Under the pieces are notes generated by a model. The model was not told the origin of the DNA. It did no database searches and saw only the letters and a list, made by a program, of their open reading frames with translations. The position numbers and the translations under genes were made by a program. A DNA stretch of 64,000 nucleotides, from assembly GCA_947561715.1 (NCBI GenBank), contig OX387198.1:10726001-10790000 (forward strand). Direction: 5' to 3'. Within the stretch, counting starts at the first letter, position 1, and each line of letters begins with the position of its first letter. Below, piece by piece: positions 1-64,000 of this stretch. This DNA is from Ascidia mentula. Taxonomy: Eukaryota; Chordata; Ascidiacea; Phlebobranchia; Ascidiidae.

Positions 1-10
1 TCACATTTAC

Positions 11-6851: not shown

Positions 6852-6859
6852 TGACGTCA
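6852..6859. promoter_or_regulatory. CRE-like site (TGACGTCA)
   Basis: A perfect palindromic CREB/ATF site in the divergent region between the GPCR copy A start (6115) and the RyR start (7647), about 790 bases upstream of the RyR ATG. Occupancy is not known. Confidence 0.4.
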
Positions 6860-7209
6860 TCAATCTGTCAACTTAAAAAAATGTGTGATTTACATCATGT
6901 ATTTGGATTGCCTGTAGCGCGATTGACAGACAAGTTAAAGAATCTATGGGGTCGCAAAAGCAGGAAAAGTGTTTAAATAATCAACATCACTTGTAAATTT
7001 CGGTGGACAATTTGAGAATTCGGTATCCCAGCTTTTGTACAAATATAAACCCCATCAACTTACATTTTTTGTTACATCAACAACGGCGCCTTCTCGGACC
7101 TAATGCATTTGACCGACGATCAATAACCGGGTTACCAGCTGATAAGATCCCGTCCATCAATCACTGGGCCGTGACGACGCTTTGTTTTGTCACAGTTGAA
7201 ACCCGTGAT

Positions 7210-7244
7210 CAGCTGACTCCCGCAAGCAGCTGTGACGTCACGTG
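7210..7244. promoter_or_regulatory. E-box/CRE cluster upstream of RyR
   Basis: Within 35 bases there are two CAGCTG E-boxes (7210-7215, 7227-7232), a perfect CRE TGACGTCA (7233-7240) directly abutting the second, and an overlapping CACGTG (7239-7244). The cluster is about 400 bases upstream of the RyR ATG. CAGCTG is a MyoD-type E-box, and ascidian tail-muscle enhancers are known to combine CRE, MyoD and Tbx6 sites. I found no convincing Tbx6 site next to it. A muscle role is inference. Confidence 0.45.
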
Positions 7245-7646
7245 TCAAACCTGGAGTCTGCCATTCGTCCCGTAGATCGATTGCGCAAGGCGACACCGGC
7301 GCCTGAGCTTTCTGACGTGCAATGTAGAATCACAGTTGACACTATGGGCTTTGACAGTAAGTAGACGTTGTATTCTTGAGAAGGAATCGACGTGTTTTGG
7401 TCTGTTGTAGTTTAAGAAAAGGTGTGTCAAAGCCATGGTCAAACGTGTATGGGGTGTTTTAACGTAAATCTTGAAACGAGGCACGTTTAGGGTTTCGAAA
7501 TTTTTGTGTGCATTAAGAAAAGCTACTTCGTTGCCGCATATTCATTATTCATGAAGCAGACTTAACCGAATCGTGATTCTATTAGGTCAGGAACGATAGT
7601 GATTTGAAGGGATCTGAATTAGTAGCTGGTGTCGGAGAATTCGGGT

Positions 7647-10600
7647 ATGGCAGAAGGCGGCGAAGGCGAAGAGGAAGTTCACTTTCTACGCACGGTAAGC
7701 ACATCGTGCTGCTCAGAGATAAATAACAAACAAACTGCAGTATTTGTTGAAAATGCCAATGCACAGAATCGTTGTTTATTTTTTTGCTGTGTAAATGTGA
7801 GCTTGGGTTCTGTCTAAAGTCCGTAGTTGATGGTATCCCTGGCAAATACAACTTCTTTACCGAAAAGATTGTTTTCATTGAAATGCGTTTAACATCCTAA
7901 GTTAATAATCAGTGGAAAGTAATAAAAACCTTCATCGTGCGAAACACAAAAATGGTCCAAATAATAGCCAAAGTATTCGCATTTCTTCAGGCATTTCCTT
8001 CATAGTAAAACGTCGATAAACCGTGTCTATTATTTACATTGACTTTCAGTTAAGCTTCACCAGGGTTACGAGTTTTGTTGATATGTTTAGCTCAAAGTGT
8101 ACGAAGCAGCCCAAACTTGACTTGAAGATGTTTGCTTTTCGTAACAAATGTTACGGGAGTAAAGGTGTCCGCAGAGAGCTGTAAGGTTGCGTCATCGGCG
8201 TCCTCCCAATTAATCGACGACCTCACATTCTTCCACGCGCCCAAAATAACGCGTCGCGACAACTCCCTAGGGACAGGGCAATAATCCTGAAGCAACTTGT
8301 GTTGTTTTGTCATCAGACTAGACTGCATCGATCGCGATTAGCGCTGATTTAAGTTGCCATGTATTCTGCAATGCCTAATTGGTTGCCTTACTGCAAAATC
8401 AACAATTTTCGATTATTCGGCCCTTTAAAACAAATGGATATTTTCAAAAATCAATGAGAATGATTCTTAATCTATTCCCTTCATTGTTTCAAGCTTTCAA
8501 GCCAAATACGGAAATATAAATATAAATAAATAGGTTGTAGACATAAGACTGATACGGCACGTTTCATAATTTGATAAATATTTACATAACACATAAACTA
8601 GACGTATCCACATAACCTAACTGCGTCAATTAACACCTGAACATCTGCAATATGGATGTATGTTCAATTAAAGTGCATGTGACACGGTCATATCAACTCA
8701 AAAGAAAAACAAAAAGGGTCACAATTTCAAGCCTGCATTATGTCTACAATATATTATTCATTTATATAATTATATATAAACTAATTTAAGGTTTAGGCAG
8801 TATATGGTACCTTAATAAATAATCCGCAAACATACAATCATTTTACGCCCGGTCCACGTGCTTTTGGTACCTGTACATATACTGAGGATTTGTGTGTTAT
8901 AAATTGGACAAATCAAGGCTGTGTTGATTAGTTCGTCCAATACTAAAGCTGTACATTTAGTTGCCAAAAAGGCACACAGCTGTTCGAGTTTAAATCGCAA
9001 GCGTTGTACTTAACAGGACGATGAAATCTACCTCCAGTGTATTTCGTCCAAAGAAGGGTCGAAGCTTTGTCTCGCTGCTGAGGGGTTCGGCAATCGACTT
9101 TGCTACGTCGAGCATGCTTCCGACGACAAAGTAAGAAAAGGAACCTTTTTTTAATTGGAAATATCGTTTTTTTAGCAATGGGATATATGTACAGTGAATT
9201 GTAATTAGATAATAATTTTTTATCACATATCGCACACCGTTTTACTATTTGCATCAGGCAAACATGGTGGATTATAAACGGTTGTAAACCGATAGATTTG
9301 GTTGAGATTTTGCTTGTTAACTGCGTAGACACCATTCTATGGATGAGCATTTAATGTTCTTGTAATATCCATAGTTTTGTTTATCTCCTTTTTTTGAAAA
9401 CGTGACACATGCGTAAAAATCAAGTATCAAGTTGCTCAGGACAAATGGGTTGAGTGACTTTAACACAATATTTTTATGCTTCATGGCAGGACATCCCTAC
9501 AGATGCGCCCAGATGCATGTTCGTCTTGTCCCAAGCGTTGTCCGTGCGAGCTCTGCATGAACTGCTCGCCCATGATGACGTAAGTTGTATACATAGATAG
9601 CGGACGCGACTTTTGTTTGGTGCGCATTTCGTAGGACCGGTAAGGTCATCTTATCATCTGTTTGTGTTGGTCGATCTTAGCGCTATGTCACCTCACCAAT
9701 TTTCGGCGTTCATTTCCACATTTTACCATTTCTTTCTGACGTGTGCATTATAATCTTCTCATACAAATCTTCAACTTCTTTTTTTGCATTTCACTTTCCA
9801 TTTCCTAAAAATCGCATTTTGCTTCCACTTCACTATCACATCGCACGTGGCAACCGACAGTGTTTGGAAGAATTCGCCGACGAGATCGACGCTAAGCCCA
9901 GCCTAACTGCTGACGAGCAGGCAAGACTTAGCAACGTGCATGTCGTGTGATGGGAACGGCTTTTTTTTTTATTTACTTCCTTTTGCTGTTTGTTGTTGGC
10001 GAAAACCACTGGCGTGTGCCACAAACAGGTTACCTATTTGGGAGTGGTACTAAATTTAAATGTCCATTTTTTCGTGTTTTTGCCAGTGCAACGTTACATT
10101 TCGTCTCTCGTTTAGCCAGAGGCTTGCTTAGCCTGCATTGAGTGGTTTAGATCCTCGTTTTTTGCTGCTTTGTGGTTTTCAAGTGCAAAAACTTTGTTAT
10201 AACACGCAATAACTCGTTTTCGGCAAGGGATAAAACGATGTATGTTGTGTTTAGACTGAAGGGAGTTCGACTCACAGTCGAACACTTTTGTACGGCAACG
10301 CTATCCAACTTCGTCACGATCTTAGTGGAATGGTGAGTTGTTGTTTGTACAAAAAACATTTTTAAAATTAGGAAACTGTTTTCAACAATTGTAAGTTCGA
10401 TATTTTCAGATAATTACTTGCTCAATTTAAGCTATTTGTATATCTAGGTGCAAAATAGTTGAGTAGTGCGACCGGAAAAGCCAAAGCTAATATGCTAGTC
10501 ATTAAGCAGACGTTTCTGTTCAGTTGTCTGCCTGCCTAGCTTTGCGCACGCCTTGCTGCAACTCGTTCCTACTTAGCACTGATGATAAACGCAATGGTGT

Positions 10601-17200: not shown

Positions 17201-20200
17201 ATCAATTACATTTGAAAGTGATAATGTTGACACATTTTAACCTTTCAAATAAAAGAATGCCAAATTCTTGTGTTTAATACTTGTATATTCTTGTTAACTT
17301 CTGTCGACAGGTGATCCTCTCTCATAATCTACAAGCTGTCGTACCAAAGCTTGCTGAAGGAATACACGAGTTATGGGCGATGACTAGAATCCAAGGAGGA
17401 TGGGCTTACGGGACGGTAAGAATCAGGTTTCTCTGAAGATTTTTGGCACTTTTAGAATGTCGGCTGTTGAGAACTTTTTGTCGCTCGTTCTACGTTTCAA
17501 CGGATTTGCAACACTGACAAACTCTACCATCTACTATGACCTTTATATATGTTTACAAAAATATAACACCGGATTCTTGCGTTTGCAGTATGTCTGAGAT
17601 AACCAAAACTCACAGTCATAGTTTAGGCGAAATACAACTTATTGCTTAGTTGTGAAAACGCAAAAACGCAAAAACGCAAACAACTTAATTGCGAAAACGC
17701 AAGAAATCCGAAATACAACAAACTCTACCATCTACTATGACCTTTATATATGTTTACAAAAATATAACACCGGATTCTTGCGTTTTCGCATCTTATCGAG
17801 GATAAACTTTGCAGGTTCGAGATGAACAGAAAAAGCAAAATCCTTGTCTGGTGGAATTCGCTCGCCTTCCCGAGCAGGAACGCAATTTCAACCTGACGAT
17901 GTCTTACGAGACTCTGAGGACGATCATTGCTCTCGGATATCACGTGGGAATGGCTGACGAGGACGCCGAATACAAATTAAAACGTTTGAAACTACCCAGA
18001 AAGTACGCAAAATGTCTTAATAATCGTGCGCTTGACAATGGCAACGTGAACTATGGCGCGAATGGTTACAACATAATTAGCAAAATATTTCTAATTTAAT
18101 ACCTTACGCTAAAAACTACAGTGGGTCAAAATGTATGTGTATAAATTGTGAGTTTTTCACTGGTATATTACTCAATACTGATGTTGGTTTGTCTAAACAG
18201 CTACATGATGGCGAGTGGCTACAAACCAGCACCGATCGACCTTTCCCACGTTCGTCTCACTCATCAGATGGAAGATCTGGTTGAGAAGCTCGCTAACAAC
18301 GCACACAACGTGTGGGCGAAGGAGAGAGTGAAGCAGGGTTGGACGTACGGAGTGCACCTGGTCAGTGTTGTTTGAATGCATGTTCGTTCGTAATACCTTG
18401 AACGTTGTGTTGTTTCAAACTTGGTTGCTTTGAAGGATGTTGGGAAGAAGAGAAACCCGCGATTGGTACCGTTTTCGCTTCTCGATGAACTTGCCAAACA
18501 AAGCAACAGGTTAGATTTTGTCATTGAACATTTGAAAAATACATTGCGGGAGAGTTTCTCGAGAGATTTTTAAGCAGTAGAATTTCTTACCGCAAGCACG
18601 TGAACATTCTTGTGGACCCTTACATTTTATACTTTTGTAGTTTGTGCGATAGTCTTGTGACGCTGTTGGGTAGCACTGTGGTAACAATGCATCCGGGCAC
18701 AGCTGTAGTAGTTATGTTTACTTTGACTGTTTTCGTAGCAACCACCTTTTCTTGAATAAAACCTCCGGCGTGTGTTATTTGCGTGTGATTGTTATTTCCA
18801 GGAACTCGATCCGTGAACTTGTTCGCACACTGATTGGCCACGGTTACATGATCGAACCTCCAGATGATCGCCTTAAGAGAATGGATCGAAGTGAGCTTTA
18901 TGTTATTGTTTGCTGGCCGCTGCTAATGTTAACAACTGTAAAAACTTAACCCCACATTTCCAGTCTTGTGTGCATTGTGTCAAGTTGTCAAGTTTTATCT
19001 ACTGCGTCATCTAAACGAACGCTTTTGCTTATAGGTCGATGGTTATACAAAACAATGCGACAATTTTATGAACAATGCAATTCAATGCAAGTGCTTCTAT
19101 ATTGCAGGCGCAAAGAACCATGTCCAGCATAACCGCATGAGGATTTACAGAGCTGAGAAAACGCACGCAGTCAACAGCAACAAGTGGTACTTCGAATTTA
19201 CGGTAATAAGACGAGCAATTTTGCAAACATGGTTTTAATGAGTTTTTCTTGATATATTTGGAACATGATGTTGTACAATCTTGTTTCAAAGATTGAGACT
19301 CCGGGAGATGTTCGTGTGGGGTGGGCGCGACCGGAATGCTCGGCTTGTGTCGATCTTGGTACAGACGACCGCGCTTATGTTTTCGACGGAGTCAATGTAA
19401 GTTATATATGTTAATGTAAAGATTATCAATTCTTCCTGCATGTGTCATTTGTCGAATAATTTTTGGTCATTTGAGAATCATGGCTGTTTCGGATGTTTCT
19501 GGCAGTAAATTTGTTGAGCTACTGTTTATACTTACCCATTTGTGAAGGCGCTCAAATGGCACTGCGGGTCTGAAGGCTTCGGACAACACTGGCGAGTCGG
19601 TGACGTCATCGGATGTTTGCTTGATCTCAATGAACGGACAATTTGTAAGAGAAAGAAAAGTTGTTAGGTGTAGCCTTTGAACAAAATTTAAGGTTTTCTA
19701 CCAAGATGTCTATGACTTATTCTCTTCGTCTATGACTTATTGAAATGAGTAACGGCATTTTTTCATCTCCTTTTCAGCATTTACTTTGAATGGTGAGATT
19801 CTGATCGACAGATTTGGTCAGGAGTTTGCGTTCAACAACCTCCCTGCTGGGATATTTCTTGTTCCTGCTGCAAGTCTCAACACGGGGCAAAGTGGTTTGC
19901 TCAATCTTGGACAGGTCTGCTGTACTCAGCCAAATATTTCGCTTAGTTTTTTGTTACGTTTGCAAGGAGAAACAGACAGAATGCTCAAACCCATCTTACA
20001 TCATGAAGAATTAGATTATATAAAACAATATACAGTATTGTAATATAACAGAAAAGATCAATGATTTCCTTTTGCTATGGAAATAAGTTTTACATTTTTA
20101 GTGAGTTAAGTCCATTATCCAATTTCTTTTAAATCACTAAGAAAATGCACAAAATCACTGCATGAAGTAACGACTGTTTTTGGGGGTTTAACAGGATCCC

Positions 20201-23200
20201 ACAAGTTTTAAATACTTCGCAGCAATGGGTCTCCAGGAGGGCTACCAACCTTTCGCTGAGTAAGAACCTCAAACAACCATTATTTTAGCGTAAAGTTTCC
20301 TAACGATGATTGTTTTGAATGTGCAGGGGCATGCGTTCCCAAGTTGCCATCTGGTTTACAAAGAATCTGCCTTGTTTCGTCACCGTAGATGAAACCAGCC
20401 GTGACGTAGAAGTAATTCGCATTCCGGCAAGGTAATGATTAATTTAAATTTTTACTCTCGTGCATGTAAGGATTCGAGCCAACGCTTAATATAAATTTCA
20501 TATTGATGCTCCATGTTTTTTTCCGTCTTTCACATTCCTAGCCCTATTCCTGCAAAGTTTACCAGCAAAGCAAACTGACCAACTATATATTTTCTTGTGC
20601 TTTCGTTTTTAGCTGTTGCAAAATTTAATTTATGGTGTATTTTATTTTGTTCATTTTCTATAGCAATCACAAGCCGCCAAGGTTGAAGGTGATTAACCGC
20701 CGATTAATAGCTGCTTCCAGCAACCTCTCACAACCTGCAGACTGGCTTTACACGAGGCTAAATATGCCAGTCATGATGGGCGAAACTTTTACTAAAAAGT
20801 AAGCAAAAAAACTCATAATACAAGTGCGTACTTTGTAAACCGTACGTTAATAAGTTGATAAATTTCACCCATGAGGTTTTAATATTGTCAATAATTCATT
20901 CATTAAGTCATATGGTATATTGTTTCAAGCTGGAGAAGATACCGTTAATAGAGAGTACTGCGTACATATTTAAAATAATCGTAACTTACATTTCTTGGCT
21001 TATTTCCATTTTGTTTATTTACTTTTTGTTCGATGATTCCTGCTTTGTTCTTTCCTTCTCGCGATAATTCATCCAACTTTCTTTCGTATTTTTTCTGCTT
21101 TCCTTGGAATTCTTCCCTTCACAGTTCAGGCCGCATCATCAATATCTTCACTGAAAGCGAGTCGATGTTGGACGACGGTGAGCAAGATTTGTCGTCTATG
21201 CGTTTTGTGGTGTCCTTGTTTTTCTATCAATTGTTCGCTGGATATTCTTTAAACCGCAACGTGTTACCCAGATGTCGATGGGGATTTTGAGGTTTTGCGC
21301 AAGACTGCCCGTGGTGGTTTAACTGGGGTGAATGGTGGAAAACACCACGAACGTCAACAACAACATCATCACCATCATCATCACCTCGGTACTTCAACGC
21401 TGCCAATACCAGGTAGAGTCGTTAATCCAATAGACAAATGTGGATTGGATTCTCGTAGATTTCTCTATGTCGTTCTCGGGCCTTTGTAGCGAACTGCTCA
21501 AAGGAACTATTGATAAAACCATTTTGTAGCGTTATTATCGTGATTGTGATAAACTTTGTGTAATTTCTATGAGCGGATTGTTTTCCAAAGTTCTCCCAGT
21601 TTGTATCTCGTTTCTGTGATCAGTCAGCCGTGTTTTATTGTTAAGGGATAAAAGTTTCCAAATTTCACTTCCGCTCCAAGTCGTCCGCAACCGCCCAGAC
21701 TGCAAACAACACCCCAGCCAAATCACGACTGACGGAGGAAGTCTTGCCCGACCAATACACCGACGTTTTGTACAAGAACGACATCGACCAGGTGATAAGC
21801 ACGAAATGACGATGTTCTGTGTCATATTTATTCACAATACCGGAATTTTTGTGTTGGCCAAAACGTTCTCTTTCTTTTCAACAATTTTTTTTTCGTTCAG
21901 CTTCTCCACTCCACTCAGTATTCTTTCACTGTACGGGTATTTCCCGATCAGGAGCCGGGCAGTGTTTACGTGGGTTGGGTGACGTCGGACTTTCATTGGA
22001 ACCTTGACCAATTCCGCCAGGACAATATTCCCTCTGTCACACTGACTCTTGGCGACGACAAGGGAAAAGTGAGCGAGAGGTGAAAAAAAAACAGGAATTT
22101 TTCCGACAGTTTGCTTAGACGCGTTTTTTAAACTTCAACTAATATTTCTACAGCATAAAGCGATCCAACTGCTACGTGATCTGGTGCGGCGACCTTCACC
22201 AGCATGTGGCCAACGGCCAATCGAATAACGGTTTGCTGGTCACGTGTATGGTCGACATAGCAACAGGCTTGCTCACTTTCAGCGTCAACGGGAAAGATCT
22301 TCACCTATTCTACCAAGTAGGAAAACTACCTTACAATTTTTTTCGAGCATTTTAAATTAATCAAAAACTATTTTGTTTGAAGGTTGAGCCAGGCGTGATG
22401 CTATACCCGGCTGTTTTCGCTCTGCCCACTGCGCAGTCTGTTTTCCAGTACGAACTTGGGCGGTCTAAGGTAATGTTGTGTTTTAAAATTCCTTAATTCC
22501 CTTATTTCGTCGTTTTTATCTTGTCCGATCATCCTGACACAAAACCTTGGTTAGCTAAAGCATTAACTTCATCCCGCGACTTTAAAGTTTTGACATTATG
22601 TTAACGTGTGTTTCTAACACAGGAAAAAATCGTTATTATAAAAAATTATACATAAAAAAATAAGATGCATTTTCTCAAGATCTCAAGATAGTGTTTTCGT
22701 TTAGAATTGTATGCCGTTGTCTGCTGCCTTGTTCGAGTGCGAGCGAAAAAACGTCATCCCTCAGTGTCCACCGCGATTGGTCGTTCAAGCACTAGCGCGG
22801 GTCACGTGGACGCGTATGCCGACACGCTTGATTAACGCCGAATGTCGTCGTGAGTTGGATCGGTCGAAGGGATGGAGTGCCGAGCTTAAGAAGATCGATT
22901 CCTACGGCGATGCTTGTAAGAGATTGCGCAATTTATCCGGCAATTTGTCAAAACATAATTGTGGTTTTGGGTGGAAATATTGTTGAGTTTAACAATTATA
23001 TACCGAAGATATAAAACGAAATAATGGCCAGCTTTTGTTTATAGTTATTCGGTATTTACCATGTGACGCTGGCTTGTCACAATAGAAGGAACGTATAGAG
23101 AGCACATCCAAAGCTGTTGGCTGTAGTTGATTCGTAGTGAAAGTTCTCACCCTGTACAACTATCTTGATTCTTCAAAATTTAGTTTATAAGAATGGCCGC

Positions 23201-29200: not shown

Positions 29201-32200
29201 ATTCTTTTTTCGATCACCTTCTATGTTGAACATAATAACAGAAGGATCAAGTCACATCCGACAACCCGATCTTTCGGCTTGCTTCGTTCCTGATCACAAG
29301 GCGGCGATGATTCTCTTCCTGCAACGTGTTTACGGAATCGACTCTCCCCAACTTCTGATAAGAATCCTGGAGGTTGGCTTGCTTCCTGACATGAAGGCGG
29401 CTGCCCAACTTGACACGGTTTGTAGTTTTTGGGAATAATCAAAACAACCCAAACAGCAAAATAAAGATTATTAAAACGATAAAACACGTTTACAATACGT
29501 CATTTTTACTGAATCGGAAAGCAATTTGTATATGAAACGGGATTTTTAAACTGAATATATTTACGTCATTAATCATATTTATATTCTAAGTTAATGGTTT
29601 TAATCTTAAGCAGATAATTTTTGATACTTTTCGTATTGTATTGACAAAATTCTTTGCGAAACGCCCATGTATCCAAAAACATGGAGGAAACAATAATCCA
29701 AAATATTAAACAACTTCTTTCCCTTCACATAACACAAACGTTCTTTCTTTAGCCTGCTCTTCATTCCTCCAACATGGCTCTTGCATTGAACCGCTACATG
29801 TGCCACAGCGTCCTCCCACTTATCATACGCCACGTGGAACTTCTCGAAAAGTCTCAGCATCGATTGACGCTCTTGGATCAAGTATTACACACGGTTTATC
29901 GAATGTCGCGCGCACGGGCGCTCACCAAAGCTCAGAAGGAAATGATTAGCGATTGCTTGGTCGCGGTCGCCGGGTGAGTTCGATGTTGATAATTGTTACA
30001 AACCTACGTGAGGTTCCAGTGTGTTCAGCACACATATCAATAGCTCTAATTTGGAAAAAGAACGGTTCTTTAAATAAGCTTTATACATGAAGCATGACGA
30101 CAACCTGTAAAGGCAAAAAATTTTAAATACTTTACTCCTTTTGGAGTCTCAGGAATATAATATTGCAAAATACAATGATGCATTATTATCGCATAGGTTA
30201 CGCCTTTTTAAATATGTAAGCAAAACATTCCCGTAAGTTTGTATTTGGCAAACAACCTTGTTGTGTTTCAGTGTTTTGCGTCCTGCATTGTTACAAGGCC
30301 TCCTTCGCAAGTTGACGTTCGATGTCCCGACTCTCACAGAGGAGACCTACGTTCCAATCAGAGTGAGTATATTAACAAACCTTACATAGGTAAAGGGAAT
30401 AACACCACATTGTATTTGGTTTTGTTTTTGTAGCCAATGTACTTTCTGCGATTCTTAGAGACTATAACATGACGATCATGTATTTGGTGGCGTGGTGTCG
30501 TTGACATTTCACCCCACAAACTATCACGATCTCGTTTTTCAGCTTCTGACTCAGCACTACACGCGTTGTTGGAAGTATTATTATTTGCAAGATGGTTGTG
30601 TGGAGTTTGGTCGGGCAACAGACGAAGAGAAACATCTCACGATGGTTTTGTTCTGGGGAATCTTCGACTCTTTGTCCAAGCGGGTACGATAAAAAAACAT
30701 GCTGTGTTTACAGACTTTCTCGTTGCCTTTTCCTTAGAGTAGGCGTTTCAAGCATACGTTTGATGAGTTTTTTTTTTCAAGCACACCATGTTTTTTCATG
30801 ATTTTCCACTGCGTTTAACAGCTGTAGGTCATGAACAAATTACGTTTTCTACTCAAGCTTATAATGCTTACATTTTTTTCATTTTTATTTATTTCTGAAC
30901 AATTGGCCGTTTGACAGGAGGATGTTGCATCTATACTACCGACGCCCCAATTTAAATTGAACATGATCGAAATATTTATCCTAATTTCGTAAGTTATACC
31001 CAAATTTAGAATCTGTTTCTAAAACATTCGCAGGAATACGAACATGAATTGTTTTCGAAAGTCCTCCCGTGTTTGTGTTCGGTCGGTAACGCTCTTCCTC
31101 CTGACTACGCTCTCTCTCCAGCGATGGAAAAACTCCGTCAGCAATCTTCTCTTGATGCAGATGGGAAATTTAATCCGAAACCCGTCGATACAAAAGGGTA
31201 TTAAACTATGTTGAAGTGTTACATGGAGGGACAGGTCATTTATATTTGGCGATCTCATCTCTCGTATATCGATCACGAGTAGTTGTGGTTTTAGGAAAAG
31301 GGTAATTTTGCCGCAATTTGGCGCTGTTAATAGCTGTACAGGGATTTGGTGGTGTTTCAAATTGTAATGAAATAAACCAATTGAATAAGTATAATATGCA
31401 GTTTATCGGTGCAATGCACAAAAGGAATAAGGTACTTTTTTATTTTAAAATATAAATCACAGAAAAAAATACTGTATTTCTGTATCATATTGTTGCTTAA
31501 ATAAAAGCCACACAAAAACATCGTCATCATTTTGAACAGAATACTTCTTCCTGACAAACTGGAAACATTTGTGAGCAAGTATTCAGAGCAGTGGCACGAT
31601 ACATGGGCATTGGAGCGTTTTTCAGTTGGTTGGGCGTACGGACCTCAGTATTCGGACCATCTCAAGCAACATCCCCTGCTGAAGCCTTACAGACTTCTCT
31701 CTGACAGGGTAAATGTTGTCCTCAATGATTAATTTTATACATACTCAAATGTGTCGTTCAATTGAAATTAAAAGTAAAGTTTTTGTTAAACTGTGAATCT
31801 TGCAACAACATTTTAAACACAAGCATCAGATAAGTGACTTCGATCGAGTGTAGTAATTTGATGTTTAGCTGTAAATCAACTTCATCGAATCGCATTATCA
31901 TAAATCGTCGTCAAACCGACTTTGGTTTAAACTTTTTCCAGGAGAAGGACGTTTATCGACCAACGGTTCGTGAAGGCCTCAAAACCCTCAATGCATGGGG
32001 TTGGTCAATCAGTAAAACAAAGGAAACGACGGAATCGTTTAACCAGGGTCCCACCAAAATACGTTGTTCGTCACAAAGTGCCATGGTAAGAAGTGTTATC
32101 GAGAAAGGATTTTTTTGCCATGTTTAATAAAACATTTAATAGTTTGTGAGTTAGTTGGACTTTCCGGTGTGGTAGGCAAAAATGTACTGTGGGAGATCTA

Positions 32201-35200
32201 TCCTAATAAATATTTCTGCAAGATGGCATTTACGTTATTATTTCTATTGACACCAGTAATAAATATAACGGTGTCCTCAAGATGGTTTCAATTTCCCAAA
32301 CGTTACACTTTTAAATATTTTCGCTCAGAATTTGAGTGATTCCCCTCACGGTTATTCCCCGCGTCCCTACGACCTCAGCGGCGTCTCGCTAAGTCGGGAA
32401 ATGGCGACCACCGCCGAGATGCTGGCCGAAAATTTCCATTTAGCTTGGGCGAAAAAGAAGATCGGCGAGCTCGAGGCGAAGGCGGCCGCCGCGCAGGCAT
32501 CCGGGCAACCAAGTCCGGCCAACACACTCAACACAAACCCAATGCTCGTACCTTACGATAGGCTGACCGCGAAGGAAAAGGAAAGAGACAGAAGCAAGGC
32601 ATATGACATGCTTAAGTTTCTTCAGGTAAAAAGGGGCATTTAGATATTATATTGTATAAACAAGAGAAAACGTCATGAAATGACTCCAGTTATCAGTGCA
32701 GGTTGGTGTCGACAGATAGATCGGTCTTTTTTTCTGTATTAATATTCCGGAAACCCCAAAAAGAGTAACAGACGATTAGCGTCATAGTGAATGAATTCTC
32801 GAATTTTTTTTTATCCATTATTAACAGTTTGTCGTAAATGTGTGTTTGTTTTAACAGTTCCAGAATTACATGTTGAACAAGGAAGAGAAGGACGAAACGG
32901 AGTTAAAATCATCGGTTGAGAAACGCTTTTCTTCCATGCTGCTCACGCGATTACTAGGATACGTTGACGAAGTATTAGAATTGTTTCATGTCAACAAAAC
33001 GTTTAAATAAGGCACAAAAGAAGTCTGACCGATTTGCAATTAAAAAAACATGTTCGCGTTGTTTTTCTTCACATGATGAGTTGAAAATCGATGCCTAGTG
33101 ATAAGTTTTGCCAATACCAAATCCTTACATTATTTTACATGAGGCATATATCAATGTGTTCTTGTAGCATTGGAAATACGTCATACGCGTTAAAATATTT
33201 TTGTATTAAATGCTGTCGTACTCAGGCATCCAAGTACATCACCTCTATGCTTCAAGCAATAGATGCCACAAAACAACGTCAACAGGAATCTATCATTATG
33301 GGATCAATTCCTTTACCACTCGGCTTACATGAAATCACTCCATCCGATGGCATCAAATTTTTTGCCAAGGTTTGTCGGAAACGCTTGTCAAAAACCTATT
33401 GCACCTCCTGACTTTTCTCCTATCTTTTTCTTACCGTGAATGTACTTAAGATACGGTATGGTATAAGACACGCCCATGCTACAGATTACTTTACATCCAC
33501 ATAAGTCATGTACAACCTTACCATTTCCTTGGTGCATGACAGGTTGCCATGCCGTTCATGGACTCCTATTTCAAGACCCAACAGATCTATTACGTAACAG
33601 TCGCCGGTCGTGGTGATGAGGGAATGTCCTTCGCTTCAAATAAGGAAAAGGAGTCTGTAACAACGTAAACAATGCTCGTTTTAACTCTCTACGTTTTCAC
33701 AAAACTTTTCAACAAGTAACGTTTGTTTTTATTGTAGGTTGTTCTGCAAGATGGCGCTGCTGATTCGTCAGCGAACGTCCTTTTTCGGTAACTCGTTTTA
33801 ATACATTTGTTGTGTTTAATAGTGAAATGCACAGAAATGATTTAAAGGAAAATTTTTTTTTTAGGTGTCGACGCTCATGTCGCCATCAGTTGTGTGAAGG
33901 TGTTGGCGGAATGTATCGACGCGTCGTAAGTGTTCTTGTGTTTGACAGTTCACTGGTTAATGCGTCATAAGTTGTCATTAATTTCCCAAGTTGTTGCTAA
34001 CCATCATAGAATGTAATTTGTGTCATTACTGACAGTATACGACCATAACCATTATAGATAAGCGTAATCTTTTATGACGGAGATGGAAAAACGTTCATAT
34101 CACTTGGTAAATGCGCCTTTGACGGTATAGTTGACTGCGCTCTCAACTTTTCAGGACGGTATCCAAATCTTGCCCAGAGCATGTCAAGCAATCACTTACA
34201 ACGTTCTTCAATAACGCAGCGGAAGACCTCAAGAAAATGCTGAAATACATTAAAAGGTACAAATGTAAAGAACAGCAACATAACGACTAAGATAAAACAA
34301 CATGGAATTTATAAGTCCAATTATGAAGAGTTTTTCGTATTAATATATTACACATAACACAATAGCACAAATATGTGTTTAGCGGGAGAATGGATCGCTT
34401 GCAGAAGATGATGGTGGGCGCCCAGAATACAAGTTATGTCACGCACTGCTTGCTGCCCGTACTTACAACTCTCTATCGCCATCTCGGGTCGTACAAATTT
34501 GGACAGGATCTTCTGTGTAAGTTAACACGCCTTCAGACTTATTCTTTGTTGTTTTGACCTCATTCAAAGACGTCATATAGGATAATTTCACTTGTGTTTT
34601 AGGATCTTTATTTCTTAGTTTATCGTTTATACCTTGCAGTGGATGAGATACAAGTTGCTTGCTACAAAATCCTTAACGGGCTGTACAGTCTCGGTACAGG
34701 CAAAGAAGATTTTGTCGAACGGTAGGAGCTTGCTTTTTTCTGGAAAAACCAGACAAAAAATAACTAAACCATTTTACCACAGTTTACAGGAAAAGGGAAG
34801 TCGAAGGCTCTCACTCAAGCGGGTGTCAAGCATATTTGAAACGTGAGCATAAACAATTATAAAGTGGTTCATGTTCTCGATGTTTCACAGTTTAAATTCA
34901 CGACTGTTTCTTCAGTCACCGATCGCAAGTTGGAGAGTGTCTGGCTGCTTTCGCGAGCGCCTTTCCTGTCTCATTTCTAGAGCCTCGCCTCAACAAGTTC
35001 AACGCCTACTCAATCTACAACATACTCAGCATCAAGGATAGAAAAAGTAATACATTGTTTTCGTGCGCTTACTACACCACACACTAAATGCCAACACAAG
35101 TACAAATATGGGTATTCTTGTTATATTAAAATATGTTTGTCAAACTATCAATTAATTTATTACATTTAACTTGAATTACAAAAAGAAACAGAGTTTTTCT

Positions 35201-50477: not shown

Positions 50478-53400
50478 TCATTCGTCTTCGTCGGAATTTT
50501 GATGAGGGGGAGATTTCCATCCTTGTCCTTTCAGATCTGCAACAAGAAAACTCACAAGTTAATTTTCCCGGCGATTATTCGCTCCAACGCATCAAACATT
50601 GGAAATTGCTGAATTTCATCAAACCCTTTAGCTGTGTTAGTTTTTTTCAATTAAATCGCTACTTTAATAAAATTAAAATAAGTTACTAAACTGAATTTGC
50701 AACTTTTGATTGCCAATCAAAAAATGACTCAATGAACAGAAATTGAACCACGAGGCTGCCCTGAAAACATAAATTGCTCACACACAAATATTCCCATGAC
50801 GCAAATAATTTGCGAATCTGCCAACCAGCCAGTTGTTGATTGGGGAAAGGTATACGATCTAAAACACCCACCATCTGTGTTGTTAGTGGACAGTGACTTG
50901 TTTATTTGGGCCGGGATGATTTTCTCCCTTCTCGAATCTTCATCAGCATCTTTTTCTTTCTCGGGCGATTTCTTTTTCACACGTTCTGTTGATAATCTCA
51001 CAACTGGTTTTGGCATCGTTCCTAAAAGCAATAATTTAATGAGGTTTGTGTGGTAATCTGGCTGTATAAACCATGGTTTGGCACTTCACAAACAAAAATC
51101 TCCGGAGCAAAACTTTCGAAAATCCTAACAGGTCTGTGACTACTCTGACGTCATCAAATGGACAAAAAGGTTAAGAATCACTGCTTTACACAATAAGATA
51201 GCACATAAATTGAGGTTTGCAAATAAACACAACAACCACATTGAAGTCTTACCAGCATCCATGGACAGCTTTGAGATGTCCGGGGCTGAATATGGAGCAG
51301 AACCATCTGCAAAGTCAAAACATGGCGTCCCTTTTTTGCAGTTCAGGTTTACAAAAGTTAAATTTAACAAAATAACAAAGTAAGTCCATGTTATTTAAAT
51401 ATTTCTGTGTTTTAACAAGACTTCTTGCATAAAACCCAATTGAGTTAATTACAACCAGTTGTGATGGCAGAATATCATTGCCGAAAATGCACCTGGTCTG
51501 GGTGAATTGCTGTAGCTGGTTGGACTTGCTTTTGTAGCTGGTGGACTGGCATATCTTTGTGTGAGATTGAGTGCCTGTCTTCCTGTGATGCTTTCATTGG
51601 CCCCATACTAAATAAATTCGGGTTTTAGAACTTTTAGTTCAAAATAGGTTTGTGCAAAAACGCAGGTTTATCTACGAATGAAAAAGTGTCAAAATTTTAA
51701 TGTTTAGACTTCAGTGTTCAGTTGAACGGTTTGAGGTTAACAACAGTTTTTATACATAAGCAGGAGACACTGCACAAAATCCGAAAAACAACACAAATCA
51801 AGCCTAATTCTTAAAAAAAGGTCGACAAACATTTGATTACCTGAACAGTTGCTGATGCTGCTCCAATGTTTCCAATATCTTTTGACAGAGGAACAGTAGC
51901 CGTGTGGCCATTATACTGTGGAAGTTTGAGGTTTTTGTCCAGTCTTGGTGACAAACCAACTGTTTGCGAATCCGTCAGGTCAGCTTTATTGTGTTCAGGT
52001 GGCAAGTTTTGCTTCTGTGTTGACTTGCTGATAAATGGGGCCCCTGTGTCCAGATGAACGGATTTTGCCTGTAAGTAAACAATATTTAGTTCATATACAA
52101 GATATTAGAAACAATGTAATCAACTTGAAGTAGCTTTAAAAGCATGTTATTTGGATTGTATTAACGTGATGGAACAAATAACAATTACAATTTTCTCAAT
52201 ATTTGATTAAAATCCCACCATAATGTTTAATCAATTGAATTAAAACCATTTTTTATCAGAATATAACACTTACAAGTTCCCCAAAGTTACTAAGTTATTT
52301 CGAAGTGCAAAGTTCATGCAAATAGATTCTACCATTGAAAATCATGAACTGTCATTTATAAATTAACATACCGTTGCAGAATGTGGGCGGTGACTTCTTC
52401 TTGAGGAAGGTCGGCTACCTGGAACTCCACTGGCTTTACTTTTCCCTTTTTTAGCGTTGTTGTCCAAGTAGTTATATCTGTTCACAAAAAAAACCATATG
52501 TATGTAATCATGTGCACTAAATAAACATAAATCCCAAAATATTGCCAAAATCAGGTTACCTTAAATATTTCCACAAAAAACCTTACTAATAGTGATGTTC
52601 CCAGTTCCAAATTATCCGGCCCGGCCGGACCCGGATAGTTATTAATCAAATCCGGCCGGATAATTTGGATCCGGCAGTTTTGTTTGTTGTTGTTGGCAAA
52701 AATGTTTGATTGCCAAATAGAATGCTATGTTAAGGTTAGCTTATCATGAGTGGAACAAATAAACGTGGGCATTTATTAATATGGTATAACACGCCACAAA
52801 AAACTTTAATAACAAATAACAGAAAAATCCTACGTCGGCGAGTATAACAGACTGGGTCCCAAAAACGAGTAATTTGCGAAATGTTTGTCCGCTTTTAGGA
52901 CAAAAATGCTTTCCCAACTATCCGGTAAAATTAAGTGTATTATCCGGCCGGATCCGGGTATTGAAAATTGGTCAATATCCGGCCGGGTCCGGGTACCCGG
53001 ATCCGGCGCAACACATCACTACTTACTAATGTGCTGTGGTCAAACTAAATTTTGTTACGGCCTTAGTTTATCCTGTGGGTTGCTTCTCTATTGAAACCAC
53101 AGGAATTTTGGTTGTGGCCATGTGATGACAGTCTTACAAAGTTGTGTTTCCAAGTCAGGTTACAATTCACAGGCTAACGAAGATTATATAACTATGGCCT
53201 TTGGGGGCCAATCACTTTTAGATACATTTTTGTTGTAAACACCTCATTGTGTCAGTAGGTTTTTTGTCTGATCCTTTCCAGGGTGGAGGTTCCCATTTTG
53301 GACCGGGCAGAGGTTTTTTGGATGACGGAGTGGAAGGTCCTCTCAATATACCGCTTGCAGAAGATGCATGGGACCGTGCTGTTGAAATTCTGCTCATTGC

Positions 53401-55329
53401 ACTTCTGGCTGTGTCGGGACGTTGAGTTTCATGTTGGGTGATTGCTTTTGTTTCAGCCGCCTGCAAAGTCCAGTAGATCAATTTCAGAATCAAACAAACG
53501 TTATACAAATTTATCGAACACTTACCTTTGATAAAAATTTAAATAGGAATGTCCAGACAGTCCTATGGTCAACAAATACTTAGTGGAAAGGATTTTTTCG
53601 ACTAATTTTATCCAGAAACACTATATAAGCCATGTCATGTGTACTAACCAGGAGTTTTAAAAAGTATGTTAAATTCAATTACAGTGAAATGATCACTTCT
53701 TTGTATTAATGACAAGGAAAAAATCCTCAAATTGGCACACAGTTGAACCCTCAAATAGAGTGTAAGATCAACAAGTGTATTACAATAAAAACTAATAGCA
53801 TTCAAACCTTGTGGTATAAGAGACAAAATCAATACAATATTATATTTGAAGCACTCGACTTCACTTGTACAATTTTACCTTAGCCTTGGCATAGTTCAGT
53901 TCGTGGACGGTCGTTACATAAAATCGTTTCCACACTTTTTCCTCAAATGGTGATGGTTGATAAACTGGATACCACCCAAATTTCAGGCATTTAGGTCTCC
54001 ACAAACAATCCATTTCTGTCAAGTAATTCCAATACCAGGACACCTGGGACATAATAAACAAAATAGTTTGTTGATTTTAAAGGCAGAAACAACAACACAT
54101 TAGAGACAAACCTGGGAACATCTACAAAGTGTTCTTGGATCAAGGTATGAAAACACATACAGTGTCAAGACCCTTGGAAAAACTTTAGTAAAGTCATGTT
54201 TTTCTTGAGGAAATTTCCCTTTTAATGTTTCTGAAAAAAACAGTTGGTTTACAAGGAATATGAACTGACATAAGCAGGGATAATTTTTATTCCTTAAATT
54301 ATGTGCTATAACTTAGTAAATGCAAGTTAAACTAGGGGCAGTGCATACCTGAAACAGAAATCAAGTGTTTGCTTGACAGAGATTTTAATATGTCTTCAAC
54401 AACAATCTTTTTCTGGCTTTCATGCCATTTCTGAAACTAATAAACCTAAATTTTTACCTTTTGGATGCAAAAATTTTTACATGTTATATTTTGGCAATGG
54501 AAATTCTTACCCATTTCATGATTAATTCTCTTCTCTCTCCAAAGACCTGGACAAAAATGTTTTGTTAAAATAGGAAAGATATCATCTACCCGTACTACAT
54601 TGTGAGATTTATTTTCTGTTATTTGTTGGACAGATATTAAAGGAATTTCAAATCCTAATTAGAGCAGCAGTCATGCAAAGGCTTGTGTGCTGAAGCTACA
54701 AAGCATATGTCATAATATTATAAACAAGACTACACTTGTAAGCTACAATTAAATTACCTTTAACTTTTCTATTGTCAGATATTTTTTGCTGCAACTATCA
54801 CTATGTTAGTTCTTACACTGCCATGTAAGTCCTGTATGTACAAGTGATATTGCTATACACCCCAGATTGGAAAGTTTGTTTTTTGCGTGAAGGATTTTGT
54901 TTTGGCGATCAGTAATTTCGCGGACAATCACAATGTTTTTCGTATGTTAATGCATTAGCTAAGTAATATTGTGCGGATTATCGCCCCCAAGGGTTCGCAT
55001 CCTGACATGTATGCAATCATTGTTCATGGCATTTTATTTGATTCAGGATTTTATATTTCAATACTGTCTAATTTTAAAAACCTGTGCTATGCATAAGTTT
55101 TTACATCTTTAACATTATGATATGAAAAATGAACCACTATGTTCAAAAAGGCACCAACCTCTCCTAGACTACACTTTGTAATGTGCACCATATTACAACT
55201 CAAGCAAACAAAGTAACATTATTTTTTTGAAATTACCTGGTTATTTGCTTCTGGGTTATTAGCTGGTGTCCATGTGCTCTTTGCCAAGTTGCTGGAAACT
55301 TTGGCCTTCACTGGTGGGGCAAAAGCCAT
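50478..55329 (-). CDS. FBXO16: F-box only protein 16
   Basis: Twelve exons on the minus strand: 55237-55329, 54511-54546, 54349-54430, 54112-54230, 53879-54043, 53243-53460, 52372-52477, 51841-52068, 51493-51607, 51253-51306, 50872-51021, 50478-50536. Total 1425 nt, 474 aa plus stop, longer than human FBXO16 (about 290). The N-terminus MAFAPPVKAK, the STWTP motif and ERRELIMKW match the family. The F-box follows (FPRVLTLYVFSYLDPRTLCR, then CSQVSWYWNYL), then KCLKFGWYPVYQPSPFE, and the conserved PPPWKGSDKKPTDTMR with YNYLDN. The extra C-terminal part is low-complexity Ser/Pro/Lys. By family, it is the substrate-recognition adaptor of an SCF (Skp1-Cul1-F-box) ubiquitin ligase; substrates unknown. 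A hAT MITE sits in the intron between exons 6 and 7. Confidence 0.9.
52590..53021. mobile_element. hAT-type MITE with intact target duplication
   Basis: 432 bp flanked by perfect 8-bp direct repeats CTTACTAA (52582-52589 and 53022-53029). Termini are inverted: TAGTGATGT at the left, ACATCACTA at the right. Subterminal arrays of CCGG-rich palindromes (ATCCGGCCGGAT and variants) lie at both ends. No transposase is encoded. The 8-bp duplication and short terminal inverted repeats fit the hAT superfamily, and the intact duplication suggests a fairly recent insertion. It is in an FBXO16 intron. Confidence 0.85.
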
Positions 55330-55972
55330 TTTTGAAACCTGTTCAAATAAACATACATGTTTACACTATTCTAAATTTACACATTTTCAGTACAATCATA
55401 AATAATCTATCCAATAAATTTAAATTCCAACTTACATTCTACCTTTTTGTTTTTTGTAGGTACAAGCGATAACGGAAAACGCTTACCTTTAAACATGAAA
55501 TTCAGCTTGTTAATTTGTTTACGTTCAACTGTATAACAAGATGATCAAGCAATTCGCAGTATAATATTACATTAACATGCCTCTTAACTGTTTTCCAATT
55601 TAAATTTGTTTTTGTGAAGGCAAGCGATCTGTCATGCTTGACTGGCCATCCGTAATATTGTTTCTTTGCTATTTCTAGCGGTTTTAATTTTTTTTATTAT
55701 TTATTAATGCTTGCCCCAAGAAAACAAATGAGGATTTTGTAACTGTTCTATGATTATGTACAAATAACTATTGAGATAAGAGACTTTTACTATTGCGTTC
55801 CCGATGTACCACAACGTCACTTATATTGATTAAACCCTGTCGATGGCAAGTAAGGTCTCCACATTTCTTAATTCATAATTAATCACCACATTCACCACAA
55901 GTTTTTCCAATATCAAAAAATTTTATTCGTGGCAGCAATATGCAAAAGAGAATGGGAGAGGATTTTGCCAAT
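55330..55972. other. Spacer FBXO16 start / CDK11 stop
   Basis: 643 bases holding the FBXO16 upstream region and the CDK11 3' UTR. A minus-strand AATAAA at 55922-55927 probably ends CDK11 transcripts. Nothing else recognised. Confidence 0.6.
55922..55927 (-). terminator. Poly(A) signal for CDK11
   Basis: AATAAA on the minus strand, 46 bases after the CDK11 stop at 55973, inside an A/T-rich stretch. Canonical position for a short 3' UTR. Confidence 0.6.
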
Positions 55973-58900
55973 TCAAAAGCGAAGACTAAACCCGGTGCCG
56001 TGTTTGCTCATTCCGTGTTTCGGAGCCGTAAGTTGAAATCCAAGCTTCTCTTCCTCATTCTGTAACAAGAGAAACGGCAGATTTCTTAATTATAAGAACG
56101 CAGTTTCGAAATTTCAGAATACTCAAACATTTAGCTACCTAAGACCAATAAGAAATACTCAATTGAAAAACACCGACCATCCAAATCACTTACTTCAATT
56201 GCGTCACCACTAAACTTAAATTCCCAATTACACATTTTTAGAAGATGCTGCAATGCTTCTTACCAATAACTTATTGTAACCCATTCCGCCCTCTGGGGCT
56301 TTGGGGGTTCCCCCACTGGAGTTTGCCACCTTCTTGTTGCGGGATTGTTCGCTCTTTGCCGGCCATGTCGGAAACATAGACGGCTCCACTGGCTTCGGCG
56401 TCTCGTGGAACCATTCGTGCTCCAAAGCCTTGAAGGCGGATATTCGCTTCTCAGGGCAGTATGTGAGAAAACTAAGCAAATATTTTGTTTGTCATGGAGT
56501 ATAATTTAAACACAGGTTTACATTGAAGAAAACAGGTATATAGTTGTAGTTCTTTGGGCACACAAATAACTTCTCTACAAGGTATCAGTAAAAAAGAGCG
56601 AATCAAGGCAATCTAAGAAGTGAAAACCTTTATACAAATTACCAGATCAATTTAATTGTGCTTGAAATATAGGACTCCAGGTTGGCATACAGTCCTAATA
56701 TCTACGATATGTCTTATTTTTGGCAGCTGTTTCAGCCACAGGCATCCTTATTTTTAATACGTTTTGGCTCAAACGATGTTAATTGCAAATGTTTTCTTGC
56801 AAATAAGGTAGTCATATTTAAATTTCTATTAACTTCAGCATTATTAAAAACAAAACCGTAATATTTTGTAACAGTAGCCCGTATTCTACATCGATGGAAA
56901 CCTGCTTATACTGTTCTGTGTACCGATTTAGAAGGTCGAAGCCTTGTTCAGATACGTCCGTTGCTCCGAAGCGTTTTCGTAAGGTGTTGTATGGATGTTT
57001 GGTGAATGTTGTCTTTTTCACCATCGGTAGTTCGTCGTATCCCGGCCATATCTTCTCGCTCGGGGTTCCAAGTTCCTACACAGTATATACCCTCGTAAAA
57101 TCAAGTCCTAATATAGTATTGTACAGAAATATTGAGAACTCTGAGAATAGAATACATTATTTCGAATCAAATTCCAGATCAAATTACCTTAAATATTAAG
57201 TTGAGCTGCATAATTTCAGATTTCCCTGGGAACAACGGCTTCATGCTGAGAAATTCGGCGAAAATGCAGCCCACACTCCACATGTCTACTGCACACGCAT
57301 ATTCCTGTTGTGAAAAAAGACGAAGCGTCAACAAGGTGGTGCAAACTGTGGGTATGTTCAAAACGCACCTTGGCGCCTAGAAGTAGCTCCGGACTTCGAT
57401 ACCACAACGTCACTACGATGGGTGTGTAAGGTTTTAAAGGTGATCCGTACTCTCTTGCCAACCCAAAGTCACCTGAGTACAACACAGTTATTAATTGGTG
57501 CTGACAGGAAAATGTATATATGGATGGGATTAGCACAGGTAGTTTTTTTTTACTTGGGTGTTTGTGAAGGTTGCGTTTGGGGTTTTGAAACTTTTTGTTT
57601 ACCAAAAACGCGGTATGTCATTTCCCTAGAGTCGGTACGAACCCCATTCTATTGGAAACCAGTTGGGATATTTGTGTTTGATATAATTTACCGCGCCATA
57701 CCGATTTTTAATATTCCCTTGTGACTGAGAAGGAGATTGGAAGTTTTCAGATCCCTGTGCAGGATCCAGTTGTCATGGAGATGATGTACTCCTCGGAGCA
57801 GTTGAATCATGAGGGTTTTTACCTCGCCTGAATCATAAAAAAAACGAAAAATGTCAACAAATTCTTTCTTTCCATTTGGAATCGCACATGATACTGATAT
57901 CAACGCATTACCGACTAAGAACGGTTGTTTCATGGTTTCCATCAAGCTCTTCAAGTCATGTTCGACGTAGTCCATCACGATATAGATCTTATCCACGTTG
58001 GAACCCACAACAATTTCCTTAAAAGTGTGGTTAACTTTAATTGGACAACCTCTACGTGGTTTGTGTACAGGTCTTTTGTATCTTTGTAGAGTTTGTTTAA
58101 CATATTGCGTGGTATGTTGAAAATTTTTTTTCACTTATTACCTGAACTCGGACGATGTTTGGGTGACCGGCTTTCAGTAAAGTGCAGACCTCCCTCAGCG
58201 ATGTGATCGGAAATCCCTCTCTTTCTTTTTCCATTTTCAATCGCTTCAATGCCACGACCGTCCCTTAAATCAAACTGCAGTTGTAACAATTACAAATGAC
58301 TTGAGACATGTTGTAATAGGAGGAAGTCGAACTAATAACAGGTTGTGATTTAAAATTATTTGTCAATCATGCATAATTTAAAATAGGAGATGTGATTGTT
58401 GTTTGTACGGAGGTATGGTACTTGTGGATATACTAAATACAAAATACTTGAAATAAACAATGCAATCTTCATTGCAAAAACTCAGTAAAAACCTTTAGTT
58501 TTGTCTTTTGCTCGATACACGACGCCATAAGTGCCTTCCTCGATGCGGTTTAAACATGTAAACTCGTCTACACTGCGACACCCCTGGATGGCTGGAAAGT
58601 AATAGGGCAGGGTGGGCACCTTTTCAGCTGAAAATTAACAAATGTCAATGGTTAAAGCACCATAAAGGTAAACTGTTTGGGCACAGCGGTAAATATTAAG
58701 AGTGTGCGAGAGGTAGATGACAAGATCTTTTCAAGCAGCTTGGTAGCTGATATATCCCATGCTGACCACAATGCCACCTGCAATCAAATATACTGGTCTA
58801 ATATCAAAGGGTCCAATTTCAACTTTAAACAAAATTCGAAAATTACATTTTTATGCTGACTTTATAGTGTTAGGATACTGCACTTGGATAAAATTAATCA

Positions 58901-61900
58901 TGGTCTACAATTTCTACACTTGCAATGCACAAGCAATATTGATGTATGCAATCTGACCTTCTGGCAAAAATTAAACATAATTTTTATTTTACCAAGCTTC
59001 TAGTGCTTTTGAGTGTTGTGTGGTATATGTTTGATTTGTCTAGTTTAAAAAGTCTTATGGCAGACCAATCGTTGTTTGAAGAAACTCTTATGTTATTTTT
59101 TGTGCTGGATTGTCAACTATATTGAGAATTGTGTGATGCCTGTCAGCAACAGCAGCACAATGTATGCCAAGATTTTTACAAGTGTGAAGATCCAGCAAAA
59201 AACTCTCACACAACTCACCAGGTGGAGATTCTGGTGACGGCAAATCCTCATTTGTCGACTCCACATTCTCATCATCCACCTCTGACGCTTCAGCCTGTTC
59301 AGTTGGGGAGTCAAACCTCGATTTTGGATCTGAGTCAACAACAAGAAAGATTAACAAATTTATCAAACATCATGAGGTTTTCGGGCTTGGCAGCCCAGAC
59401 AATGCAGCCTAGCTGGATCAGCCACTTTTTCCTGACAAGTCGGAGTGAGACTTAAAAAATCAAGCTCCCGGTGAGGTTTGAACTCACGACCCTGGGCTAA
59501 TCAGGCCCAACGCTCTACCAACTGAGCTACAGGAGCTCAGTGGTTTCACAGGGTATATTGTGGCCAAGGTACACTGGTGCACAAGCGCACAACTTATACG
59601 TTAGCTGTGATCGCCAAGCAAGGACCTGCCTATCATGCCATTGCATGTAATATTACTGCGTTTATCAAACATATTTGAATGTGCAGGACCTTCGTTATCT
59701 GATGCTTCTGACGATTCTTCTTCGTCATTTGTTTCCGACTGACTCCCCTCCTCTTCTGATCCTTCCACTCCCTCACTAACATCTTCCTCCTCACTTACTT
59801 CTTCCTCACTGCCTTCTCCCGATGACGAGGACTCAGAGGAAGATTCCATGTCTTCATCAGCCTGTAAATTAAGGGTTATTTTCTGATTGATATGGATAGC
59901 ACATGACAGGCTACATATTTAAGGATCACTTTCGGCAACATATTTGTTATGCTATGAATACAATTCGATGGCCAAAACACAATACATGGCAACAAAGCCT
60001 GGAAGATGAAACAGGTTTGTGCATATCAGCAAATACATTTCAAATACCCACATTTTCTGCTGTTACTTGGTCATTATCATTATCTACAACATTTTCCTCT
60101 TCTTCACCACTGCTACTTTCGAAGTTCTCAGATGAGTCTGAAATAATGCAAGAAGATGCTTTTTGTTGTGTAATTGTATCATGTTTTGTCCTACAATTAA
60201 CCCCAACAAAAAGGCGTTTTATGTTTGCAGTGTAACCAACGTGTCTTTGCAATGTGGCTTGCACCTGCAGAAATACTGTGAACCTCAGTATGAATTGATT
60301 GTGCTCCTGGGGTTATTTGCATGTTTGTGTTTGCCTATAAAAACTGTGCACAGTTTGTATCGACACACATAAACTATTTGTGAGACTCAAGAATTTCAGC
60401 AGACAACTGATTGGCTTTTAAACAAGATTGCTAACAAATCTACCTGAAGAATCTTCACTGCTAACAACTTCAGTCACGAATTCACTTGCTTTGATTATGG
60501 TCTTCTTTTTTTCAGAAATTGGCTTTTGCGGACTGGATTGTTTGGAGTCTGGTTGTTTACTGGAGGTCTCAGCACTCCTACTGGTGTTGGTTCGTTCGTC
60601 CCGTTCTGATGTCAGAGCAAGGTGGTAAAATAGTGTAACTACATAGTTGGTGGAAATTACAGCAAACTTTAAGTTCATTTCATGTAGTAAATGTTTAAAT
60701 CAATTTTTGATCACAGCTTTTAATTTTTTTGCTCCAAAAAAATGGACTATTTTATTCCATACACTTATCCAAAATCTACATTTGTACATGATCATCAACT
60801 GCTGCTCTGTAGTTTTGGGTATTTGTCTTGACATAAACTCAATTTTGTGTGCAATAATTTTCAACAAATCTGAAAATCCTTTATCCCAGAATTAACTTTT
60901 ATAATGTGAAAAGGTTAAGAATATTTCCTACCTTTGCCTCTCCTGCTTCTGTGGTGTGCATCAATGGTTGGGTCGGAATGTCGAGCAGATCGGGAGGAAT
61001 GTGAACTTTTAACTGATGACTGAACATAATCTGATGCAGATCTATCGTGTTTCACTGTCAAAAAATGAAATATGTTTTAAAAATAGGGAAAAATGCCAAA
61101 AAATGTTTGCAAAGCCATGCTAATATTTCATTTGTTAATTCAAAATTGGGTAATACGGTGTTTTTTCATTAGTTTCATGCTACTTACATCGCCGCTCGTG
61201 CCTTTTATCGTCATCATACTTTCTCACAATTAACGACACGCGGCCTAAACAAAAAAAATAATAGAACTAAATAAAAACTCTCGTCACACAATCCATTAGG
61301 CAAAGTATTTATACTTTCTTCTCTTCTTCTTTCAATCTTGGCCCGTGCATCCTCCATTTTGGATGATGATGATGATGACGAGTATCTACTTTTCTCGTCT
61401 CTCGACCTGGAATACGATCCTCGGTCAGCTTCATCGCTATGGTGACTGGCGTAACGATCCCTCTTGCTGTCACTCTCTCGTTTTGAAGCATGGGTTCTAG
61501 GGATTCTATGATAACAAAAGGCTAATTGTAACCTTCACAATGCACATTGTGTGGTTAAAATCCATGCAGCAAAAAATTACCTAAAATTGCAATGTTCACC
61601 GTGTTATGATTTACCTGTCTCTATCATATGATTTGTAATCATATGATTTCGATCTTTCATGAGGGTGAGACTTTGGGTCACTCCTGGAAACTCTTCGACA
61701 AAAAATAGTTAGGAGGCAAATTAGGAAGATGAGAAAATTTGTCATAGTTTATCTTGTAATTTACCTATCACTTAATCTTCCTGATGAGTACTCTTTCCTT
61801 GGTGCAAGTCGATCACCATAATCACCACCCCTTCTGTCTTGTATATCAGATTCTGGTCGTCCTTCGGCTGGCCTGGATTCTTTGTCTGAAAATGATCAGG

Positions 61901-63745: not shown

Positions 63746-63751
63746 TGTGCT
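63746..63751 (-). promoter_or_regulatory. Intercistronic gap with possible trans-splice acceptor
   Basis: Between BOLA1 TAA and PSMG3 ATG the minus strand reads AGCACA, so an AG directly follows the stop and leaves 4 bases before the ATG. Ascidian operons typically have almost no intercistronic DNA and use such AGs for spliced-leader addition. No pyrimidine tract is obvious, so this is inference. Confidence 0.45.
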
Positions 63752-63952: not shown

Positions 63953-64000
63953 CTGAATAAATACAATCAAAATAACTAAGCTAAGTTTAGTCAGAAAAAA

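Follow-up and report, generated by a model that had tools for sequence, protein, structure and literature searches.

A candidate 60-nt cassette exon with two kinase-type motifs in the ryanodine receptor gene of the ascidian Ascidia mentula

An intron of the ryanodine receptor (RyR) gene of Ascidia mentula contains a 60-nt stretch that is stop-free in the RyR frame and encodes 20 residues, among which two basophilic consensus motifs around serine, RRLS and KRVSS, can be read. The frame is preserved both when the stretch is included and when it is skipped. Our preferred explanation, which we hold tentatively, is that it represents a real cassette exon with the edges 34783 and 34842 and a low level of inclusion (positions are those of the window, i.e., the whole 64,000-nucleotide stretch of DNA that was analyzed).

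The RyR locus and the candidate exon

The RyR gene lies on the plus strand of the window, where a 112-exon model spans positions 11047 to 49539. The assignment of the gene to RyR, already made in an earlier note on this DNA, is upheld by homology to an RyR2 chain with an E value of 2.4e-212, the best stretch covering all 693 residues of the query. The model was obtained with a self-trained gene finder at a penalty of -9.5 and corrected by hand in places against RyR2; it includes exon 32329–32625 after correction, begins at 11047 without the N-terminal exons, and contains some exons that look doubtful by eye (for example between 23913 and 24501). Two other versions were dropped as gene models, the first gene-finder run having over-split the RyR gene and the run at a penalty of -13 having kept only 27 exons. 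Two 25-nt microexons (20664–20688 and 20930–20954) are also predicted in the gene, with a product that looks RyR-like by eye, and a duplicated stretch (17388–17594 and 17622–17822) lies mostly within one modelled RyR intron.

A single RyR gene was found when the genome (195.8 Mb in 79 contigs) was searched with a pore-exon query. The matches consisted of two exons of this same gene and one distant match of 40% on another contig, which is probably the IP3 receptor; a second RyR gene was rejected with this query. RyR relatives were also sought in viral contigs (1 pattern match) and in genome contigs (43 pattern matches), and none was confirmed.

The features around the candidate are as follows (all on the plus strand):

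34640..34721, + strand, upstream RyR exon, ending in GKEDFVE plus two bases of the next codon (RyR1 and RyR2 alignment, splice sites)
AACG/gtagga, + strand, donor of the upstream RyR exon (splice-site inspection; the slash marks the exon border)
34722..34915, + strand, host intron of 194 nt, flanked by two homology-supported exons
34783..34842, + strand, candidate cassette exon of 60 nt (open frame, symmetric phase; motifs RRLS and KRVSS)
34788..34800, + strand, purine run of 13 nt within the candidate, a possible splicing-enhancer-like stretch (purine-run count)
34916..35046, + strand, downstream RyR exon (RyR1 and RyR2 alignment)

The candidate is preceded by cag and followed by gtgagc, so that the AG and GT ends are both present, and it would leave introns of 61 and 73 nt, a workable size. 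Since 3 of the 110 introns of the RyR model measure 61 nt or less and 9 measure 73 nt or less, both lengths fall within the modelled range. The coordinates, length, symmetric phase and 20-residue open frame given in the earlier note all proved correct.

The same holds for its proposal that skipping restores a vertebrate-like junction. In the two alignments shown, both to RyR2, the skip product crosses the junction without a gap and is aligned to VERQRSALGECLAAF, and the RyR2 counterpart of the 16-residue junction segment of the skip form, likewise gap-free, is YVERQRSALGECLAAF. When the 60 nt are included, a 20-residue gap appears in all five alignments shown, every one of them to RyR1; these place the gap two residues past the exon border. 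At the border itself, the insertion point separates K3185 from L3186 in the RyR1 chain 5gky and R3150 from Q3151 in the RyR2 chain 7u9x (both counted from the alignments). We take this position to belong to the bridging solenoid of RyR, and it probably corresponds to an inter-helix loop. The local spliced product in its included form matched no family in a Pfam scan. A second genomic copy of the candidate exon was sought and rejected, as a protein query matched this locus only (2 matches) and a 501-bp DNA query gave 1 match.

Splice sites, chance background and competing exons

Splice sites were scored with matrices trained on the introns of the same RyR gene model and ranked among its 110 modelled sites. 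The candidate donor at 34842 is ordinary (score of about 4.4–4.6, with 47% of the 110 weaker), whereas the acceptor at 34783 scores 2.1 and lies below 96% of the modelled acceptors, only 4% being weaker. Seven nucleotides downstream, an acceptor at 34790 reaches an ordinary score of about 5.3–5.5 (57% of the 110 weaker). The 34783 edge thus follows the upstream one of two AGs, and only 4 of the 110 modelled introns use an acceptor AG that is preceded by a further AG at a distance of 12 nt or less. The coding score of the candidate is +3.3 over 60 nt (0.056 per nt; the median for exons is 0.129). No gene-finder run called the 60-nt exon, be it the first run, those at penalties of -9, -11 and -13, or that at -9.5.

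Two other exons can be drawn from the same sites:

34790..34842, + strand, rival exon of 53 nt (site scores; frameshift, with a stop in the next exon by translation)
34790..34822, + strand, rival exon of 33 nt (gene-finder calls; no basophilic kinase motif)

To estimate how often such stretches arise by chance, we took 194-nt tiles with the same flanking partial codons and counted any in-frame, stop-free exon of a length divisible by three that scored at least as high as the candidate. The intergenic tiles, which overlap and whose non-genic status is assumed, came from positions 1–9000 and 50500–64000 on both strands; the shuffles were 1000 dinucleotide shuffles of the host intron. Of the 452 intergenic tiles, 16 equalled or exceeded the total score of the candidate (sites plus coding), as did 8 of the 1000 shuffles and none of the 105 antisense-intron tiles. 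With the site sum alone, the counts rose to 33/452, 84/1000 and 5/105, and when the site sum and the coding score had to be reached together they fell to 5/452, 4/1000 and 0/105, respectively. Applied to about 110 introns, the rates for the total score translate into roughly 0–4 such stretches per gene, so that finding one somewhere in this gene is unremarkable. In a scan of the other sense introns, the site sum of the candidate was reached by 8 pairs in 6 introns and its total by 0 of 106 pairs. The count for the total is biased, since good pairs had been claimed as exons by the gene finder beforehand; we therefore relied on the tile and shuffle background. The exon score of the candidate stands only modestly above that background. 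The prediction of a cassette exon in the earlier note keeps its open symmetric frame and its AG and GT ends, but it has to contend with this modest score and with the stronger acceptor at 34790.

Composition raises the odds of a real exon somewhat. The GC content of the candidate is 0.45, compared with 0.34 in the flanking pieces of the intron, a value matched by 8.5% of 60-nt intronic windows. Purine runs of at least 13 nt, such as the one inside the candidate, number 4 in the modelled introns, including this one (0.19 per kb), and 7 in the exons (0.48 per kb).

These observations bear on several explanations. That the stretch is a chance pseudo-exon, exon-like in appearance and never spliced in above noise, is a serious possibility: the weak acceptor, the low coding score, the silence of the gene finder and the intergenic and shuffled rates over some 110 introns all point that way, and the empty antisense-intron count, the rarity of the motif pair (see below) and the island of higher GC content argue against it. 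Should it be a pseudo-exon, it would be an instructive example of an intronic stretch that misleads by being open and carrying motifs. A fixed, lineage-specific loop, with the 60 nt included constitutively in this species and no switch at all, would be consistent with a frame that is open and in phase; the weak acceptor and a skip junction that is fully RyR-like make it the least probable of the readings considered.

It is unlikely that the true exon has edges other than 34783 and 34842, taking both alternative forms together. The 53-nt form would shift the frame and lower the RyR level by nonsense-mediated decay; its site sum (5.3 + 4.4) is the highest obtained with any of the four pairs of edges that were scored, and its shifted frame does reach a stop in the next exon, but the CAG located 7 nt upstream of its acceptor would have to be bypassed, which is rare in the gene model (the 4 of 110 noted above), and we regard it as improbable. 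The 33-nt form, in another reading frame, would add 11 residues without basophilic kinase sites. It was called in the final pass of the first gene-finder run and in the runs at -9, -11 and -9.5 (nothing was called in intron 34722–34915 at -13), and both its coding score of 6.5 over 33 nt and its total of 14.6 surpass those of the 60-nt form (total of 10.5), even though it had been left out of training. Its donor at 34822 (CGG/gtgtca), however, is weak, with only 7% of the 110 weaker, and it too skips the upstream AG; we consider it very improbable.

Kinase motifs and a possible splice-gated input

In the preferred reading, that of a weakly included 60-nt cassette exon, the default RyR mRNA would join 34721 to 34916 and the exon would be included in some cells. 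Inclusion would probably be low, given the poor acceptor and a likely dependence on the internal purine-rich enhancer. The 20 added residues would be inserted where a short segment separates conserved parts of the cytosolic solenoid, leaving the frame undisturbed, and this new loop would carry two sites, RRLS of the PKA type and KRVSS of the PKA/CaMKII type, both of which might be phosphorylated. Since the loop would hold kinase sites, channels with the insert could respond to cAMP- or calcium-dependent kinases, and the input would act where the RyR1 and RyR2 of mammals, as aligned, have no residues. The phosphorylatable serines would sit on a polybasic stretch, and their phosphorylation might affect gating.

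The two motifs, RRLS and KRVS(S), which we take to fit the PKA and CaMKII consensus, are present in the frame as claimed earlier, and their pairing is uncommon. With the host intron masked, 28,009 overlapping noncoding open stretches were scanned; 38 of them, at 5 places, hold two [RK][RK]x[ST] motifs within 20 codons, and 924 hold one or more. The 4861-residue RyR model without the candidate, itself imperfect, contains 5 [RK][RK]x[ST] sites, all of them single; RRx[ST] is absent, and in no window of 20 residues do two sites occur together. As the motif was noticed first and the test chosen afterwards, the weight of these rarity figures is limited.

A second site in the same gene is relevant here:

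31942..32085, + strand, RyR exon encoding the equivalent of the mammalian RRIS loop (RyR2 alignment; joined to 32329)

The alignment to RyR2 confirms that the mammalian RRIS reads RCSS in A. mentula, column by column. The second arginine is replaced, and the serine and the -3 arginine are kept, which suggests that this Repeat34 kinase site may be weakened rather than plainly lost, leaving a weaker basophilic site, and which makes it less likely that the kinase input has moved completely. As only one RyR gene was found, splicing could be its means of diversifying. One could imagine that the kinase input of the single RyR has moved, at least partly, from the Repeat34 loop to a splice-gated loop of the bridging solenoid, with cells choosing whether their calcium release is tuned by cAMP- or calcium-dependent kinases, an idea that we rate as quite unlikely. 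Of what the earlier note put forward for a phospho-switch, the identification as RyR, the RCSS reading and the skip junction hold, and the motifs are rare; the weak acceptor, the better rival acceptor and the 0–4 pseudo-exons expected by chance speak against it, and a working switch is speculative. If the exon is used, the kinase sensitivity of RyR would be set by splicing, as opposed to the three RyR genes of mammals, and a part of the solenoid without counterpart residues in mammalian RyR1 and RyR2 would receive a phosphorylation input.

Comparison with known optional exons

Vertebrate RyRs have splice variants such as ASI and ASII of RyR1, the 24-bp insert of RyR2 and the 29-residue segment of RyR3, which are likewise short and in frame and are located at other places than the A. 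mentula insert. We know of no vertebrate RyR variant with a pair of PKA motifs at this position. A search of the open-licence literature for RyR together with tunicate, Ciona or ascidian yielded, among the matches listed and as judged from titles and the beginnings of abstracts, no ascidian RyR splice form. Of the vertebrate variants, ASI and the RyR3 segment are mentioned in work on insect RyR (PMC3787966, PMC3989282).

Insect RyRs possess optional segments that are short, in frame and stage-regulated, exemplified by exon c of Ostrinia and ASII–ASIV of Bactrocera, the latter measuring 12–45 bp (PMC3787966, PMC3989282). They are situated elsewhere: in the interval from RyR repeat 3 to repeat 4, in that from SPRY3 to the second RIH domain, or close to the RIH-associated domain. 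In the sections consulted, no kinase site is mentioned for these segments, and no optional segment is described at the position of the A. mentula insert (PMC3787966, PMC3989282). Splicing of RyR at other places is described for insects and also for mammals, and PKA sites are reported in the Repeat34 domain of an insect RyR (PMC8301844).

A similar logic is seen in the STREX insert of the BK channel (KCNMA1), a cassette that is reported to place a PKA consensus site in a cytosolic linker of the channel and to turn the effect of PKA from activation to inhibition (PMC4122160). The use of STREX as an exon is established, its serine has been tested and its cysteines are acylated, whereas the A. mentula stretch is a candidate exon with putative phosphorylation sites and belongs to RyR. 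Both optional RyR exons and PKA-site cassettes are already known, from insect RyR and STREX, respectively.

Two minor observations concern the surrounding DNA and the genome. A near-identical translation, KMLAKTRGRCHAVIARSATARLMMKATPMFFSFFSVSAVAI, is found at about 870–1090 and 5510–5730 of the window, perhaps as copies of a dispersed repeat. In line with a tunicate genome, two genome stretches score above the curated cut-off for glycosyl hydrolase 6 (PF01341), a family that is a marker of tunicates within the animals; one of the two has an internal TGA, and no such match occurs in any of 14 control genomes.
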